Source of the DNA: Solirubrobacterales bacterium
Lineage (GTDB): Bacteria; Actinomycetota; Thermoleophilia; Solirubrobacterales; Solirubrobacteraceae
Length of the DNA stretch: 13,128 nt
Assembly: GCA_013695395.1 (NCBI GenBank)
Contig: JACDAP010000140.1
Span: 1-13,128 of the forward strand
Direction of reading: 5' to 3'
The notes under the pieces: generated by a model
Databases searched by the model: none
What the model saw: only the letters and a program-made list of their open reading frames with translations
What the model was told of the DNA's origin: nothing
Position numbers and translations under genes: made by a program
Shown: piece by piece, positions 1,054 to 12,033 of the stretch
Numbering within the stretch: position 1 is the stretch's first letter
Layout: each line of letters begins with the position of its first letter

Positions 1054-3754
<2,701 letters not shown>

Positions 3755-5995: not shown

Positions 5996-7738
5996 TCAGG
6001 CGGTGCGGCCGCGGCAGGTCTTGAAGCGCCGGATCTGCGTCACCGTGCGACCGCTCCGCGTCTGTCCCCGGACCTTCACGGTCACGGTACGCGCGGGTCG
6101 GCCGCGCAGGTCGATCCGGGCGGTGAGGCGACCCTTGCTCCGGCGCACAGCCGCGCGCTTGCCGAGGTAGCGGACGGTGGCGCGGCGCATCGCCCGCGGC
6201 AGGCGGATCGTGAACCGGCGCTTGGAGATGCACCGCGCCGTCTCGCGCTCCGGCCAGGCCGCCTCGTCGAGATGGAGCACGTAGAGGCCGGAGGTCGCGT
6301 CGGTGTACCAGACGTCGCGACGAGCGACGTCGAAGGCGGGCTGGGAGAACGCGAAGTTCCCTTCCTGGCCGGGGGCGGCTCCCTCCTTCGGCGGAGCGAC
6401 GAAGTAGGCCGATTCGCGCGGATTCGCCGGATCGCGAATGTCGAACACGCGCAGCCCGGAGTTGAGGAAGGAACAGGCGACGATCGTCGGCTCCTCCTGA
6501 GTCGGCGCCGCGCAGTAGTGGGCGCCGTAGCCGAGCGCCTTGTTCGGGACGGGGAACGGGTCGCCGTTCACCTGGCGGTGGACCTCGGGCATGTTGACCT
6601 CGAGGCGCAGGTCGGAGGCGATCCGCGGGCGGGCGGGATCGGTGATGTCGATCAGCCGGGCCGCGCCGGCCTTGTCGTCGAGGGTGAGCGGGTTGAAGCG
6701 GAACGCGAACTCGTCGAACTCGAGCAGGAAGGGCTTCCCGCCGAGCGTCAGCGGCACGGTGTTCTGCGGGATCGAGACGCTCTCCCAGGTGCTGCGGCTG
6801 ATCTGGCGGACCTGTGGGGCGGGCCTCCGGTCCTGGATCTCGGAGACGTCGAGGATTCCGAGGTTCCCGTTGATCGTGTCGGTCTGGTACATCGTCCTGC
6901 CGTCGTCCGAGAAGTTCAGCCCGTGGGAGTAGAAGTTGCCTTCCCAGACGACGTAGGGGAACCTCGGATCGCGCACGTCGTAGGCGGTGATCCTTCCCAC
7001 CCCGCCCGCGACCCAGAACGTGTTGCCGTCGGGGGAGAAGCCGCTCTCGTGGCCGAAGATCGACAGGGAGATCGACTGGAGGACCGGGCGGCGGCAGTCG
7101 GCGCTCACGTCGTAGACGTCGAGCGTGCCGGGGGCGGTCAGCGCGGTGCCGGTCGCGGCGCCGAGCAGGCCGCGCTTCGCGTTGAGGTTCAGGGACTCGT
7201 GCGGCGAGAGCATCCCGGGGGTGAGCAGCGTGTCGGTGCGGACCGGCTTGGTCGGGTCGCTCATGTCGAGGACGACGACGCCCTGCGTGGGGGCGGCGGC
7301 GAGGCTGACGAGGTTGGCCGGGGAGCCGAGGGAGGAGTCGTAATAGGCGCAGACGCGGCCGGCGCGATCCTCGTAGCGCCAGACGCGGAAGCCGCCCGGT
7401 GTGTCGAAGCGCCCCGTCACCGTCGTGTTGCAGGTCCAGCCGCGGTCGGCCTGCTCGCTGGCCACCGCCTCCGCGGAGACGCGGCCCTGGATCGGATCCT
7501 CGAGCGGCTCGGAGCCCGGGCCGCACCGCGCCTCGGGGACGGGCGCGAGCTTCGGATGCGGGATGAGCGCGGCCGGGGCGGTGGGGAGGAACTGGCCGCC
7601 GGTGAGCGCGAGCGCCGCCTCGAGGTCGTTGGCGGGGAGCGTGGGGCCGGTGAGCTGCGCGCTCGCCGGTGCGACCGCGATGAGCAGCAGCGCTGCTGAG
7701 AGCGCCGCCGCCTGCCCGGTTCGCCGCCCCCGCGTCAT
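5996..7738 (-). CDS. Secreted LVIVD-repeat (beta-propeller-like) protein
   Basis: A 580-residue exported protein. The ATG at 7738 is preferred over an upstream ATG at 7828 because it puts a clean Sec signal peptide at the N-terminus: basic MTRGRRTG, hydrophobic AAALSAALLLIAVA, then ASA before Q28. The mature part has LVIVD-type blade strands, seen as GVVVLDMSDPTKPVRTDTL (153-171), LDVYDV, GRITAYDVRDPRFP, GNLGILDVSEI, AARLIDITDPARPRIASDL (359-377) and SGLRVFDIRDPANPRESAYF (427-446), interspersed with propeller-like FSPDGNTFWVAG and FSDDGRTMYQTD. Residues 503-575 form a separate basic tail bounded by C503 and C575 (RRFTIRLP, RIDLRGRP, RSGRTVTQ). I associate this tail with secreted Thermoleophilia proteins. 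No catalytic motif is visible. A binding or cell-surface role is likely but unproven. A paired palindrome lies 49 bp upstream, and the acyltransferase gene follows 45 bp downstream. Confidence 0.85.
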   Translation of the reverse strand: MTRGRRTGQAAALSAALLLIAVAPASAQLTGPTLPANDLEAALALTGGQFLPTAPAALIPHPKLAPVPEARCGPGSEPLEDPIQGRVSAEAVASEQADRGWTCNTTVTGRFDTPGGFRVWRYEDRAGRVCAYYDSSLGSPANLVSLAAAPTQGVVVLDMSDPTKPVRTDTLLTPGMLSPHESLNLNAKRGLLGAATGTALTAPGTLDVYDVSADCRRPVLQSISLSIFGHESGFSPDGNTFWVAGGVGRITAYDVRDPRFPYVVWEGNFYSHGLNFSDDGRTMYQTDTINGNLGILDVSEIQDRRPAPQVRQISRSTWESVSIPQNTVPLTLGGKPFLLEFDEFAFRFNPLTLDDKAGAARLIDITDPARPRIASDLRLEVNMPEVHRQVNGDPFPVPNKALGYGAHYCAAPTQEEPTIVACSFLNSGLRVFDIRDPANPRESAYFVAPPKEGAAPGQEGNFAFSQPAFDVARRDVWYTDATSGLYVLHLDEAAWPERETARCISKRRFTIRLPRAMRRATVRYLGKRAAVRRSKGRLTARIDLRGRPARTVTVKVRGQTRSGRTVTQIRRFKTCRGRTA

Positions 7739-7787: not shown

Positions 7788-7839
7788 GACAGCGGGCGTG
7801 GAATCGTGTCGTGTGCACCCGTTTCCACGCCGGGAGTTC
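7788..7839. repeat. Paired palindromic repeat, locus 1, unit 1
   Basis: A 52-bp unit starting GACAGCGGGCGTG and ending CGCCGGGAGTTC. Its core (7795-7831) is two 15-nt arms around a 7-nt loop, and GGCGTGGAATCGTGT pairs at 13 of 15 positions with ACCCGTTTCCACGCC. By hand comparison it matches the first unit at the other locus (11067-11118) at 44 of 52 positions, with most differences in the loop and inner stem. It lies between two same-strand genes and overlaps neither. Confidence 0.9.
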
Positions 7840-7847
7840 AACGCGCG

Positions 7848-7899
7848 AACAGCGGGCGTGCAAACGCGTCCCCTGCACCCCGTTCCACGCCCGGAGTTC
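7848..7899. repeat. Paired palindromic repeat, locus 1, unit 2
   Basis: The second 52-bp unit, exactly 60 bp after the first, with an 8-bp spacer (7840-7847). It starts AACAGCGGGCGTG and ends CACGCCCGGAGTTC, with its core at 7855-7891. Its arms pair less well than those of the other units (GGCGTGCAAACGCGT against ACCCCGTTCCACGCC). It begins 15 nt beyond the aldo/keto reductase stop codon on the minus strand, so it could also help end that transcript. Confidence 0.9.
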
Positions 7900-7914
7900 C
7901 AGCGTGGGGGAGGC

Positions 7915-8973
7915 TCAGGCCAGCCCGCTCGGGCGCCTGCGCCGCGCGGCCTCCTCGGTGAAGACCGAGCCGTAGAGCGCGTCGTCCTGGCCGAGGGTGA
8001 CCCCGGGCGGGACGATCACGTCGATCCTGTCGAGCACGTCCTTCGACAGCACGACGTCGCCGGCGCCGAGCTGGGACTCCAGCTGCTCCATCGTGCGTGG
8101 GCCGATGATCGGCGCGGTGATCGCGGGATGGGCGAGCGTGAAGGCCAGGGCCATATGGATGAGTGAGATGCCCGCCTCCTCGGCGAGCTGCGCGAGCGCG
8201 TCGGCGGCCTCGAGCTTGTCCGCGTTCGCGCCTGAGTCCTTCTCCATCCGACCGCCCGTCATCGAGGCCCGGTGGCTCTCCGGCGCCTCCTGCCCCTTGC
8301 GGTAGCGGCCGGTCAGCCAGCCGCCGGCGAGCGGGCTCCAGGGGATGACGCCCATGCCGAAGTCCGCGCAGACGGGGAGCACGTCGCGCTCGATCTCGCG
8401 CGTGAGGATCGAGTAGGGAGGCTGCTCGGTGACGTAGCGGCCGAGCATCCGCTTCTCGCTCGTCCAGTGCGCGCGGACGATCTCGTGGGCGGGAAACGTC
8501 GAGCAGCCGAAGGCGCGGATCTTCCCGGCCCGCTGAAGGTCGGTGAGGACGCCGAGCGTCTCCTCGTGGTCGGTGTCCGGCTCGTGACGATGCATCTGGT
8601 AGAGGTCGATCCAGTCGGTCTGCAGGCGCTCCAGCGAGCTCTCGACCTCCTTGGTGATCCATCGGCGCGAGTTGCCGCGGCGGTTCGTGCCCCCGTCCTT
8701 CTCTCCCATCTGGCCGTGCGCCTTGGTCGCGAGGATCACCTCGTCGCGGCGGGCGCCCGTCAGGGCCTTGCCGAGGATCTCCTCCGACTCGCCCTGCGCA
8801 TAGATGTCCGCGGTGTCGACGAAGTTGATCCCCGCGTCGAGCGCCGCGTGGATGATCCGAACCGACTCGTCGTGGTCCTTCTCACCCCAGGCGCCGAACA
8901 TCATCGTCCCGAGGCAGAGGGTGCTCACGGACATGCCGGTGCGGCCGAGATCTCGCTGTTCCATGCTCGCCAT
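7915..8973 (-). CDS. Aldo/keto reductase family oxidoreductase
   Basis: A 352-residue cytoplasmic NADPH-dependent carbonyl reductase of the (beta/alpha)8-barrel aldo/keto reductase superfamily. The catalytic tetrad is complete: D53 and Y58 in FVDTADIY, K84 in ATKAHG and H128 in LYQMHRHEPD. PWSPLAGGWLTGR (211-223) and PIIGPRTMEQLESQL (288-302) are the usual C-terminal cofactor-binding blocks. The sequence resembles YdjG/Tas-like and mycothiol-era actinobacterial reductases, but the substrate cannot be inferred. The frame is open up to 8997. The ATG at 8973 and the ATG at 8964 (three codons later) are both plausible: AGGAG ends 2 nt before the first and 11 nt before the second. It follows the kinase-fusion gene by about 33 bp on the same strand, suggesting co-transcription. 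A paired palindrome lies just past its stop. Confidence 0.92.
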   Translation of the reverse strand: MASMEQRDLGRTGMSVSTLCLGTMMFGAWGEKDHDESVRIIHAALDAGINFVDTADIYAQGESEEILGKALTGARRDEVILATKAHGQMGEKDGGTNRRGNSRRWITKEVESSLERLQTDWIDLYQMHRHEPDTDHEETLGVLTDLQRAGKIRAFGCSTFPAHEIVRAHWTSEKRMLGRYVTEQPPYSILTREIERDVLPVCADFGMGVIPWSPLAGGWLTGRYRKGQEAPESHRASMTGGRMEKDSGANADKLEAADALAQLAEEAGISLIHMALAFTLAHPAITAPIIGPRTMEQLESQLGAGDVVLSKDVLDRIDVIVPPGVTLGQDDALYGSVFTEEAARRRRPSGLA

Positions 8974-9006
8974 GTCTCCTGACCGCGAGAGCGGCAAACG
9001 CTCAGC

Positions 9007-10995
9007 TCACCCCGGCACGCCCTGGTTGCGGTTCCACTCGATCCAGCCGCAGCCCGCGCGCCCGTCGGCCGCGGTGACCTTGCACATCGCGCGAGGGAAG
9101 TGCGAGACGCGGCCGTCGGGAGCCTCGAGGCGGATCGCACCGAAGGCCACCGGCTCGATCCTGAGCTCGAGCGGTCCCGGCTCGCTCACGGTGCTCGCGC
9201 TCGTGATGAGCCCGTCGGCGGCCACCTCCTCGCTCGCGTGCAGTGAAGTGAGCTCGGTGACCTCGCCGTCCTTCTGCACGTAGCCGACGCCGTAGCCCGG
9301 CATCGACGGCACCGCGACCGCGTGGGTGTGCGTGCCGTCCTCGAGGTGCAGTCCGTTCCACATCCAGTCGGTCGCGAACCAGTCCCGTGCGCCCCAGGAG
9401 TGGTCGCGCTGGCCCGGGCCCGCGAAGGCGATCTCCTCGTCGCCGATCCGGAGGCTCCCGGTGACCCGGCAGGGGATCTCGTAGCGGGTCGCCTGGCGCC
9501 ACTGGTAGGGGACGCCGACCGTCTCCCACACGAGGTCGAGCGCGATCTCGACGGGTGCGCCCGATTCGCCGCGGAGCGGTGCCGCGGGGTCCTCGTGGGC
9601 CTGCGCGGTGCCGGTGACCACGACGCGGAAGCGCTCGAGCGGTACCTCGCAGTGCTGCTCGACGCGCAGCCCCTCGACGGCGATCATCTGCGTGTCGTCC
9701 TCGACCGCGGGTAGCGGCGCGGCGGCGTCGACGAGCATGATCGACGGGCGGCCGGGGCCGGTGACGCAGGTGCTCAGCAGCGCCGCGTCGCGGTTCGGCA
9801 TGCGACCCAGGCGGTGGTAGAGGCCGACGCCCCCGTCGTCGCTGATCGCGTCGAAGTACCAGCTCTCGTTCCACGTGTCCTCGCCGCCGGGCGCGTGGCG
9901 GCCTTCGTCCTCCGGATCGGGGCGCAGCGCGGTCGGCTTGTCCGCCGGGTCGGGGAGCAGGGTGAGCGCGTCGAGGTCGAGCACCTGCTGGGCGTGGCGG
10001 CCGAGGACCGCCATGAACATGTCGTCGCCCCGGTCGGTCCGCTCGACGACCATCGCGGCGACGATCGCCATGAGGATCCCGCCGAAGCACTGGCGGCGGT
10101 ACTCCTCCCAGGCGAGCTCGTAGGAGACCGAGTGGACGCCCTGGGCGACGACCTCGTCGTGCCAGAGGCGGACGAGCTCCTCCTCGTGCGCGCGACGCTC
10201 CTCGGGCGAGAAGGAGCTGCCGACGAAGTAGGCGAGGTCGGCGAGCGCGGGGCCCCAGGAGACCGTCTGCCAGTCGACGACGCGGCAGTCGGCCTGGCCG
10301 TCCTCGAAGAGGAGGTTGTCGAGCCGGTAGTCGCCGTGGATGAGGCCGAGCGGCGGGCGGCGGTCGGCCACCCAGGCGTCGAGCACCGCGACGAACGTGC
10401 GGCAGACCTCCGCGTGCTCGGGCGCGACCCGATCGCCGTAACGCTCGAGGAAGCCGGGCAGGAGCGCCGTGGTGAGCGCCTGGTCGAGCGGATTGGGGAG
10501 GTTGAGGAAGCTCTCGCTGCCCACGTGCAGGTCCCCGAGTACGGGCGCCTGGATGCGGGCCAGTGCCCGGACGGCGCTGCGGGCCTGCTCGATGCTCGCG
10601 CCCGCGATCTGGTCACCCTGCGCGGCGCCGGCGATGTCCTCGAGCACGAGCGTGAACCAGCCCTCCGCCTCGTCGTAGGCGGCGTGCAGGCAGCCGACGA
10701 GTGGGGCGCCGATCCGGGGGGCGAGGTGCTCGTAGAAGGCGACCTCCCGCCGGTAGGCGCCCATGCCGACCCCGGTGCCGCGGCTGTTCTCGTCGGTCGA
10801 GGCGAGCTTCACCACCACGCTCTCCGGCTGCGCACCGTCGGCGAAGCGGACCCGGTGGTTCTGGCTCATCTGCCCGGTCCCGATCGCCTGGATCGAGGCC
10901 ACCTGCGCTCCGGGGCGGTCGAGCACCGCGGCGAAGTACTCCGGGGTCAGGTCGGCGACGGTCGCGGCGACGGGGGCGGGGCGGGTGTTCGACAT
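9007..10995 (-). CDS. APH/CHK-like kinase fused to a CrtC/AttH-like (DUF7064/7065-type) domain
   Basis: A 662-residue two-part protein. Residues 1-345 have the aminoglycoside-phosphotransferase/choline-kinase-like fold: lysine K63 in VVVKLAS, E84 in YRREVAFYEH, the hinge LVLEDI (116-121), the catalytic loop LIHGDYRLDNLLF (218-230, D222 and N227) and the Mg-binding VVDWQTVSWGPALADLAYFVG (239-259, D241). All kinase residues are present, so it should be active on a small molecule rather than a protein. Residues about 372-662 resemble the hydroxyneurosporene-synthase/AttH-like lipocalin-type domains now split as DUF7065 and DUF7064: TWNESWYFD (374-382) and GPGQRDHSWGARDW (526-539). The linker (346-371) is Pro/Asp-rich. 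No signal peptide is seen. The ATG start lacks a clear Shine-Dalgarno; the N-terminus VADLTPEYFAAVL is typical of such kinases, which supports it. The aldo/keto reductase gene follows closely. The substrate is unknown; antibiotic resistance should not be assumed. Confidence 0.85.
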   Translation of the reverse strand: MSNTRPAPVAATVADLTPEYFAAVLDRPGAQVASIQAIGTGQMSQNHRVRFADGAQPESVVVKLASTDENSRGTGVGMGAYRREVAFYEHLAPRIGAPLVGCLHAAYDEAEGWFTLVLEDIAGAAQGDQIAGASIEQARSAVRALARIQAPVLGDLHVGSESFLNLPNPLDQALTTALLPGFLERYGDRVAPEHAEVCRTFVAVLDAWVADRRPPLGLIHGDYRLDNLLFEDGQADCRVVDWQTVSWGPALADLAYFVGSSFSPEERRAHEEELVRLWHDEVVAQGVHSVSYELAWEEYRRQCFGGILMAIVAAMVVERTDRGDDMFMAVLGRHAQQVLDLDALTLLPDPADKPTALRPDPEDEGRHAPGGEDTWNESWYFDAISDDGGVGLYHRLGRMPNRDAALLSTCVTGPGRPSIMLVDAAAPLPAVEDDTQMIAVEGLRVEQHCEVPLERFRVVVTGTAQAHEDPAAPLRGESGAPVEIALDLVWETVGVPYQWRQATRYEIPCRVTGSLRIGDEEIAFAGPGQRDHSWGARDWFATDWMWNGLHLEDGTHTHAVAVPSMPGYGVGYVQKDGEVTELTSLHASEEVAADGLITSASTVSEPGPLELRIEPVAFGAIRLEAPDGRVSHFPRAMCKVTAADGRAGCGWIEWNRNQGVPG

Positions 10996-11066
10996 GCCCG
11001 AGTCTGTTCCACCGGGGTCTCACCGCGCAAGGAGGAGGTGGCGTGCGGGGGGCGGTGGGCGGGAAC

Positions 11067-11118
11067 GACAGCGGGCGTGAGAACGTGCCATCAGCACCCG
11101 TTTGCACGCCGGGAGTTC
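11067..11118. repeat. Paired palindromic repeat, locus 2, unit 1
   Basis: A 52-bp unit of the same family as at 7788, starting GACAGCGGGCGTG and ending CACGCCGGGAGTTC, with its core at 11074-11110 and a 7-nt loop. It shares GCCGGGAG near its right end with the first unit at locus 1. It lies 71 bp upstream of the kinase-fusion start. Confidence 0.9.
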
Positions 11119-11126
11119 GCCGTCCT

Positions 11127-11178
11127 CACAGCCGGCGTGGAAACGTGTCGCCAGTACCCGTTTCCACGCCCGGAGTTC
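11127..11178. repeat. Paired palindromic repeat, locus 2, unit 2
   Basis: A 52-bp unit starting CACAGCCGGCGTG and ending CACGCCCGGAGTTC, 60 bp after its partner with an 8-bp spacer (11119-11126). This is the best-paired copy: GGCGTGGAAACGTGT pairs with ACCCGTTTCCACGCC at 14 of 15 positions (core 11134-11170). It shares GCCCGGAG with the second unit at locus 1. Confidence 0.9.
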
Positions 11179-11277: not shown

Positions 11278-12033
11278 TCAGCGCAGCACCTGGACGATCG
11301 CGACCAGGCCGACGACGACCACGGCCGCGCGCAGGGCGGTGGGCGAGAGGCGCTGCCCGATGCGAGCGCCCAGCAGGCCACCCGCGGTCGCGCCGACCGC
11401 GATCAGCAGCGCGGCGAGCGGCTGCACGTCGGCGACGAGCAGGAAGACGATCGCCGCCGTCCCGTTCGCGGTCCCCGCCAGCAGGTTGCGCAGCGCGTTG
11501 ACCCGCTGGAGGTCCTCCGGCAGCGCGGTCCCGAGCAGGGCGAACAGCAGAACGCCCTGCGCGGCGCCGAAGTAGCCGCCGTAGACGCCCGTCAGGCCGA
11601 CGCCGCCGCGGAGCGCGCGGCCGTCGGGCGTGGTGCCCGCGGCAGACCGCCGCTCGAGGATCGCCCGGGAGATCCGCGGCTGGAAGGCGACGAGCACGAG
11701 CGCGACCGCGATGAGCACCGGGACGATCACCCGGAACACGCTCGCGGGAAGCTCGAGCAGCAGGATCGAGCCGACGAGCGCGCCCATCGCGCTGAAGGCG
11801 GCGAAGCCGAGCGCCCAGCGCCAGTGGCCGCGCAGCCGCTTCCGGTATCCGTAGACCGCAGCGACCGAGCCCGGCACGAGCCCGACCGTGTTCGTCACGT
11901 TCGCGACCACCGGTGCGTACCCGAGCGAGAGCAGCACCGGGAAGGTGATGAGCGTCCCCGAGCCGATGACGCCGTTGATCGTCCCGGCGGCCAGGCCCGC
12001 GGCGAGCACGTAGATCGCCTCCAGCGTCGTCAC
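11278..12033 (-). CDS. TSUP family (TauE/SafE-like) membrane exporter/permease
   Basis: A 251-residue integral membrane protein of the TauE/SafE/TSUP family, which moves sulfite, sulfoacetate or other sulfur-containing organic anions across the plasma membrane. It has the internal duplication of the family: [22 protein letters not shown] (17-38) followed by [15 protein letters not shown] (42-56), echoed by [20 protein letters not shown] (149-168) followed by [20 protein letters not shown] (175-194). About eight hydrophobic segments are visible, with a polar central loop (118-142). The frame is open up to 12111, but that start would overlap the divergent helicase gene. The GTG at 12033 gives [13 protein letters not shown], a normal TSUP N-terminus, with AGGA about 9 nt upstream. 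No sulfur-metabolism gene is adjacent, so the substrate is open. Confidence 0.88.

Follow-up and report, generated by a model that had tools for sequence, protein, structure and literature searches.

Tandem palindrome pairs with a 60-bp period, probably REP/BIME-like interspersed repeats, in a Thermoleophilia genome

Three described systems come closest to the paired palindromes reported here. REP/BIME elements are short intergenic palindromes, present in tens of copies and often arranged as dimers, and REPs between convergent genes are mostly found no more than 20 bp from gene 3′ ends. In REP dimers, spacers that are similar in length but differ in sequence have been described before (PMC3733652), which makes the present elements less novel. 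In Pseudomonas REPINs, a variable middle whose length is constant sits between two inverted 16-mers of high conservation, and the whole forms one hairpin; preferred distances are 71 and 110 bp, and ordered tandem REPIN clusters occur (PMC3116915). In tandem hairpin (cluster) terminators, adjacent hairpins that have no U-tract follow stop codons (PMC8355165). These comparisons draw on PMC2817692, PMC8266576, PMC3116915, PMC3733652, PMC8355165, and PMC6006769. A literature search by title and abstract, with few subscription papers covered, returned no description of the elements themselves.

The window, the whole 13,128-bp stretch that was analyzed, is one entire contig of genome G000 (3.25 Mb, 637 contigs, 87% complete) and contains two dimers of a sequence family designated family 1. 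Dimer A (7788..7899, +) is formed by two palindromic units with a 60-bp period: unit 1 (7788..7839, +) with half-sites at 7790 (+) and 7822 (−), and unit 2 (7848..7899, +) with half-sites at 7850 (+) and 7882 (−), separated by the unconserved AACGCGCG (7840..7847). On one side of it lies a gene of unknown family (5996-7738, −) and on the other an aldo/keto reductase gene (7915-8973, −), whose stop (3′ end) is 15 bp away. Dimer B (11067..11178, +) also has two palindromic units and a 60-bp period, with unit 1 at 11067..11118 (+; half-sites at 11069 (+) and 11101 (−)), unit 2 at 11127..11178 (+; half-sites at 11129 (+) and 11161 (−)), and the unconserved GCCGTCCT between them (11119..11126). Its neighbors are a gene encoding APH and DUF7064/7065 domains (9007-10995, −) and a TauE-family gene (11278-12033, −), with the stop (3′ end) of the TauE-family gene 99 bp away. 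Tandem palindrome pairs of this kind were absent from 200 randomized windows, compared with two in the real window. Elsewhere in the window (1054-3736), a catalase-peroxidase-like peroxidase-family gene and the gene for a Fur-family regulator are neighbors in the same orientation.

A preliminary description of this DNA had reported the four palindromes and the 60-bp period of both pairs, and the coordinates and period were confirmed. The finer anatomy needed revision. Paired arms are shorter than the 15-nt arms and 7-nt loop originally claimed: GGCGTGGAA(ACG) pairs with (CGT)TTCCACGCC over 9-12 bp around a middle of 13-19 nt, and u2 and u3 contain mismatches. The ends given as ACAGC (left) and GGAGTTC (right) are present in all four window units, but across the genome they are not constant: both are variants of a single flank, C(A/T)(G/C)C, and each variant is possible on each side. 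Pairwise identity among the four 52-bp units measured 76.9-84.6%, a range that extends below the 81-85% or so estimated from pairs compared by hand. Over all copies, the conserved unit is ~49 bp and the unconserved spacer ~11 bp, in place of the 52-bp unit and 8-bp spacer first described.

A search of G000 by pattern (≤3 mismatches) and profile, followed by reading of the contigs, identified at least 24 full family-1 units at 14 sites, with copies on 12 contigs including the window's. A second profile recovered the same 24 units; because 150 of more than 2,000 candidates were scored per profile scan, the unit counts are lower bounds. The half-sites of family 1 are CWSCSGGCGTGGAA, inverted and flanking a middle segment, and a 15-bp half-site profile placed them on a lattice of 0 (+), 32 (−), 60 (+), and 92 (−). 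All 10 intervals between full units in G000 are 60 bp. The same is true of the six full intervals in G005, a second species with at least 16 units at 10 sites. Partners that have decayed to one half-site keep the register at six sites (two on C84 and one on C398 in G000; C373, C98, and C202 in G005). Three consecutive family-1 units occur on C103 of G005, a lone unit occurs on C44 of the same genome, and contig ends truncate the sites on C633 (G000) and C45 (G005). Elements often lie within ~400 bp of contig ends (G000 C633; G005 C156, C98, C105, C260, C45, and C373), and assembly breaks may therefore conceal further copies.

The distribution of family 1 is narrow. Among seven other genomes of the genus, it was found only in G005. 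The pattern matched two of 61 genomes (G000 and 60 relatives), and these were G000 and G005, members of one genus. The exact-arm pattern matched the same two among 399 genomes of the class, with a reversed control giving one match in each of two others. Profile matches in four of the eight genus genomes comprised G000, G005, and weak strays in G002 and G006; the latter are single matches (E 0.007) with one half-site and none, respectively, and were taken as chance. A search of genome contigs returned 18 stretches, six of them from G005; none of the other 12 has a second unit or more than one palindrome in register. One of these searches' observations, an Acidimicrobiales MAG sequence (L106:3230-3266), is a single perfect GGCGTGGAAGCGGT/ACCGCTTCCACGCC hairpin with the second unit absent. 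The G005 copies have their own middle segments, which indicates that amplification of family 1 took place separately in the two lines. An origin from phages or plasmids was considered and rejected: the arm pattern has no exact match in viral contigs, and no match was found for dimer A among plasmids or for dimer B among phages.

A second family emerged at the 3′ end of mdh: the pair there belongs to family 1 in G005 but has different arms in G000, and G003 has no pair of either kind. Family-2 half-sites are GSTGAGNRYGGAT, inverted around a middle segment, and exist in two arm versions, GAGNGCGGAT and GAGNATGGAT. The arm pattern identified 40 exact units in G000 and none in seven other genus genomes, with one stray apiece in four of 41 genomes. 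Scoring 150 of 6,952 candidates with a family-2 profile gave at least 57 full and two partial units in G000; among these scored candidates, at least 33 sites contain a full unit, as 22 pairs, one triplet, and 10 singles. A match at C568:4069 had been excluded as chance before pairs were counted. The 24 family-2 intervals among the scored candidates are 60 bp in 18 cases and 59, 61, and 62 bp in two cases each. Full reading of 17 pairs showed that the two 59-bp and the two 61-bp intervals coincide with 1-nt changes in a unit or spacer, and that the spacer is exactly 11 bp in 14. Weak matches to the family-2 model occurred at 10 places in G003, G005, and G007, and the two read in G007 are lone hairpins. 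Both families have a unit of ~49 bp and a spacer of ~11 bp that lacks conserved sequence, and 34 of their 40 pooled full-unit intervals are exactly 60 bp. The proposal that pair geometry is conserved and spacer sequence is not was thereby upheld, across the genome as well as in another species and another sequence family.

Tandem hairpin pairs were surveyed by a de novo scan that sampled G000 (199 kb), G005 (177 kb), G003 (353 kb), and G007 (400 kb). It returned 15, 12, 5, and 32 match clusters, respectively, whereas a single shuffled control per sample gave 0, 2, 1, and 3. These numbers are not frequencies, because the G000 and G005 samples were picked mostly for holding elements, one G000 site was counted twice in a shifted register, and many G003 and G007 matches resemble repetitive coding sequence. 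The same scan of 16 arbitrary G000 contigs (C1-C16) found zero pairs. A tandem palindrome pair with unrelated arms, CGCGAGGGGGCCGATG, was observed in G005 (L240:8775, contig C11; unit 49 bp, period 72 bp), and pairs with further unrelated arms were observed in G007, which belongs to the genus but has neither of the two families, at L181:8496 (55 bp), L186:3154 (68 bp), and L187:13977 (62 bp). Given these other periods, the 60-bp step belongs to the two families and not to the genus.

Across both families, 49 sites were placed relative to genes called with the analysis's own codon-usage caller: two are inside called genes, nine are at contig ends, and 38 have both neighbors. The elements are therefore interspersed palindromic repeats and chiefly intergenic, as in REP/BIME systems. 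Seventeen of the 38 two-neighbor sites are convergent, 19 co-directional, and two divergent, compared with 14, 58, and 39, respectively, among 111 background gene pairs that have no site and a gap of at least 60 bp (Fisher P = 1e-4 for the convergent excess and 2.4e-4 for the divergent deficit). Gene ends beside sites are 3′ in 61 cases (median distance 25 bp) and 5′ in 27. The genome scan that the preliminary description proposed as a check thus yields many more than four copies, with near-constant spacing and intergenic bias, so the outcome named there as refuting did not arise. No function was common to the 20 neighbor proteins scanned; neighbors include transketolase, a fumarase-type lyase, GreA, malate dehydrogenase, release factor 1, a P450, and glycosyltransferases. 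With units in either orientation and two of 49 sites in called genes, a coding repeat (60 bp being 20 codons) was rejected. Above the gathering score, Rfam models matched nothing in the window; they gave two matches in 13 element-bearing contigs, both riboswitches clear of the elements (c-di-AMP, L266:5738-5901 (−); ZTP, L089:3630-3713 (+)).

The orthologous regions point to sites that are specific to a lineage, the pattern that a mobile repeat would give. None of 16 such regions (eight in G003, six in G005, and two in G000) contains a family-1 half-site of at least 12 bits. Clean gaps were found for C139, whose entire element, flanked by a convergent gene pair, is missing from G003, and for C496, where the element is absent from G003 and G005; alignment is poorer in the remaining regions. 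The two species each have an element beside one and the same gene at C525/C103, but on opposite sides. At L083:919-1030 (contig C496 of G000), CGATCCTCG replaces the usual flank at both outer ends as a 9-bp direct repeat. Sequences of 8-9 bp common to both ends were found in two of 15 dimers, one of low complexity (C260), and no shared flank signal was detected across 39 sites. Target-site duplication, a feature of classical MITEs and IS remnants, is inconsistent among the dimers compared, and this may count against a mobile reading.

The relationship between partners differs among groups. A unit's nearest relative is its own partner in one of 20 cases for G000 family 1, nine of 30 for family 2, and five of eight for G005, and three family-2 pairs are identical across 43 bp. 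Since the own partner is nearest in one of 20 and the spacing is exact, spacing in G000 family 1 outlasts sequence divergence. For family-2 and G005 partners, in-place copying is likely, judging from the sequences. Dimers matched better in collinear order in 30 of 43 non-independent comparisons for G000 family 1 and in 27 of 61 for family 2, so whole-dimer copying is not established. Spacers resemble their own outer flank weakly more than the flanks of other sites (mean best identity 0.48 versus 0.41; 31 pairs), an excess that none of 2,000 permutations reached, although few sites drive it and local base composition is uncontrolled. Some pairs may derive from a 60-bp tandem duplication.

A rival reading takes the pairs for RNA hairpins at gene 3′ ends, tandem terminators or mRNA-end stabilizers that are retained for what they do as RNA; the sites do lie close to 3′ ends and between genes that converge. 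The four window units and two dimers fold better as RNA than shuffled sequences (z −1.9 to −4.7), and U-tract-free tandem hairpins have been reported as terminators, including two after M. smegmatis gyrA (PMC8355165). Furthermore, five family-2 sites overlap a gene 3′ end by 5 bp, and their coordinates indicate that GSTGAG of the unit can provide the TGA stop. However, the T-run of intrinsic terminators is absent, with TTTT within 20 nt outside the pairs at 0 of 28 family-1 and 0 of 34 family-2 ends. Pairing is present, but its maintenance by compensatory change, as in REPINs, was not seen within subfamilies: left and right halves showed no significant covariation, variable stem positions changed without significant compensation, and covariation appeared only where one family-2 arm version replaces the other. 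Terminators need no common sequence, whereas here sequence families recur at unrelated genes, and two of the 38 sites separate divergent genes. The tandem RNA hairpin, raised in the preliminary description, is therefore supported by folding and not by covariation; it is doubtful and is not favored. Four-half-site arrays for a DNA-binding protein (an operator or a nucleoid-structuring site), with 28/32/28-bp steps set by the complex, would account for the fixed lattice, the unconserved spacer, the independence of left and right half-site variants, and the register kept by the remaining half-sites at decayed sites. This explanation is nevertheless unlikely: sites are not retained at orthologous genes, neighbors lack a common function, divergent promoters are avoided, and the middle segment, which a half-site model does not need, is conserved too.

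The behavior and placement of the elements are also those of ordinary REPs (PMC3733652), which are moved by a RAYT (TnpA-REP), and conserved stem mismatches are found in E. coli REPs as well (PMC8266576). Mismatches above expectation occur here at position 7 of G005 family 1 (paired 0.07 versus 0.47), at positions 4 and 5 of G000 family 1, and at some middle-segment positions in both families (~75 positions tested, uncorrected); the pattern fits inherited-element asymmetry, a protein half-site, and a mismatch-conserving hairpin alike. The sole Y1 protein among the eight genus genomes is encoded by G005, a family-1 carrier (L285:1468-2139, contig C208), matches the NF047646 REP-associated tyrosine transposase model at 82.2 bits (cutoff 80), and has 2116 homologues at E ≤ 0.001 in a protein search. 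Yet this RAYT sits between GAAAGGGG..CCCCTTTC hairpins, upstream and at its 3′ end (L286:5690-5724 and 6485-6505), which are unrelated to family 1, and its 14.7-kb contig has no family-1 half-site of at least 11 bits; a RAYT flanked by its cognate repeat was thus not found in these genomes, whose incompleteness limits the comparison. G000 has more copies, yet no Y1 transposase was found in it, and because the genome is 87% complete the gene could be missing from the assembly. The REP tags are scarce as well, with GTAG near 0 of 83 family-1 and 1 of 84 family-2 ends and CGTC near five of 83 and four of 84. Ordinary RAYT-mobilized REPs are thus very improbable. The resemblance to REP/BIME elements suggested in the preliminary description persists in behavior (interspersed, lineage-specific, near 3′ ends and between convergent genes), and the suggested TnpA-REP mobilization is not supported by these genomes.

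Two families, a half-site lattice, spacers without conservation, empty orthologous places, and a 3′-end bias were all observed, and together they argue that these are probably REP/BIME-like, non-autonomous, interspersed repeats, mostly paired, whose movement we infer. The elements behave like REPs, and any membership in the REP class would be by behavior. The usual element is a tandem of two ~49-bp units, each an imperfect palindrome, separated by ~11 bp of unconserved sequence. Copies would have been inserted in intergenic DNA near gene 3′ ends by a trans-acting enzyme, and the spacing would be kept through recognition of the pair itself, or of the geometry of its two palindromes, by that enzyme or by a bound protein; some partners in family 2 and G005 look homogenized or duplicated in place. 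Conservation of the step points to a role for the 60-bp pair geometry in the elements. Pairing is not strict, as shown by the 10 single sites of 33 in family 2 and the lone unit on C44, and the spacing is not absolute, with six of 24 family-2 intervals at 59, 61, or 62 bp. A more specific mobile system, guided by geometry more than by sequence, in which two imperfect ~49-bp palindromes 60 bp apart are the substrate in both families and the enzyme is not a RAYT, is offered tentatively and at low probability.

In this Thermoleophilia lineage, REP-like elements would therefore exist in a genome, G000, where no Y1 transposase was found. The tandem pair is the normal form, and families with different arms have one spacing over an unconserved spacer, which raises the question of whether 60 bp is measured by a mobilizer or by a bound protein. 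The set of elements is real, specific to its lineage, and unusually strict in pair geometry, and its spread would be that of a mobile repeat. In REPINs (PMC3116915), compensatory changes are frequent, REP ends carry tags, and RAYTs adjoin the clusters; tandem REPIN clusters include near-identical flanks, whereas here spacers are unconserved and variable stem positions do not covary. Tandem hairpin terminators are defined by structure and position and not by a common repeated sequence or a constant 60-bp step. Relative to REP/BIME elements, the units are nearly symmetric, so a head-to-tail comparison with REP dimers is only loose. The elements lack the GTAG/CGTC tag, and the unit is ~49 bp, compared with 20-50 nt including the tag for REPs in the sources consulted. 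They differ further from REP/BIME elements in that one spacing is common to two sequence families.
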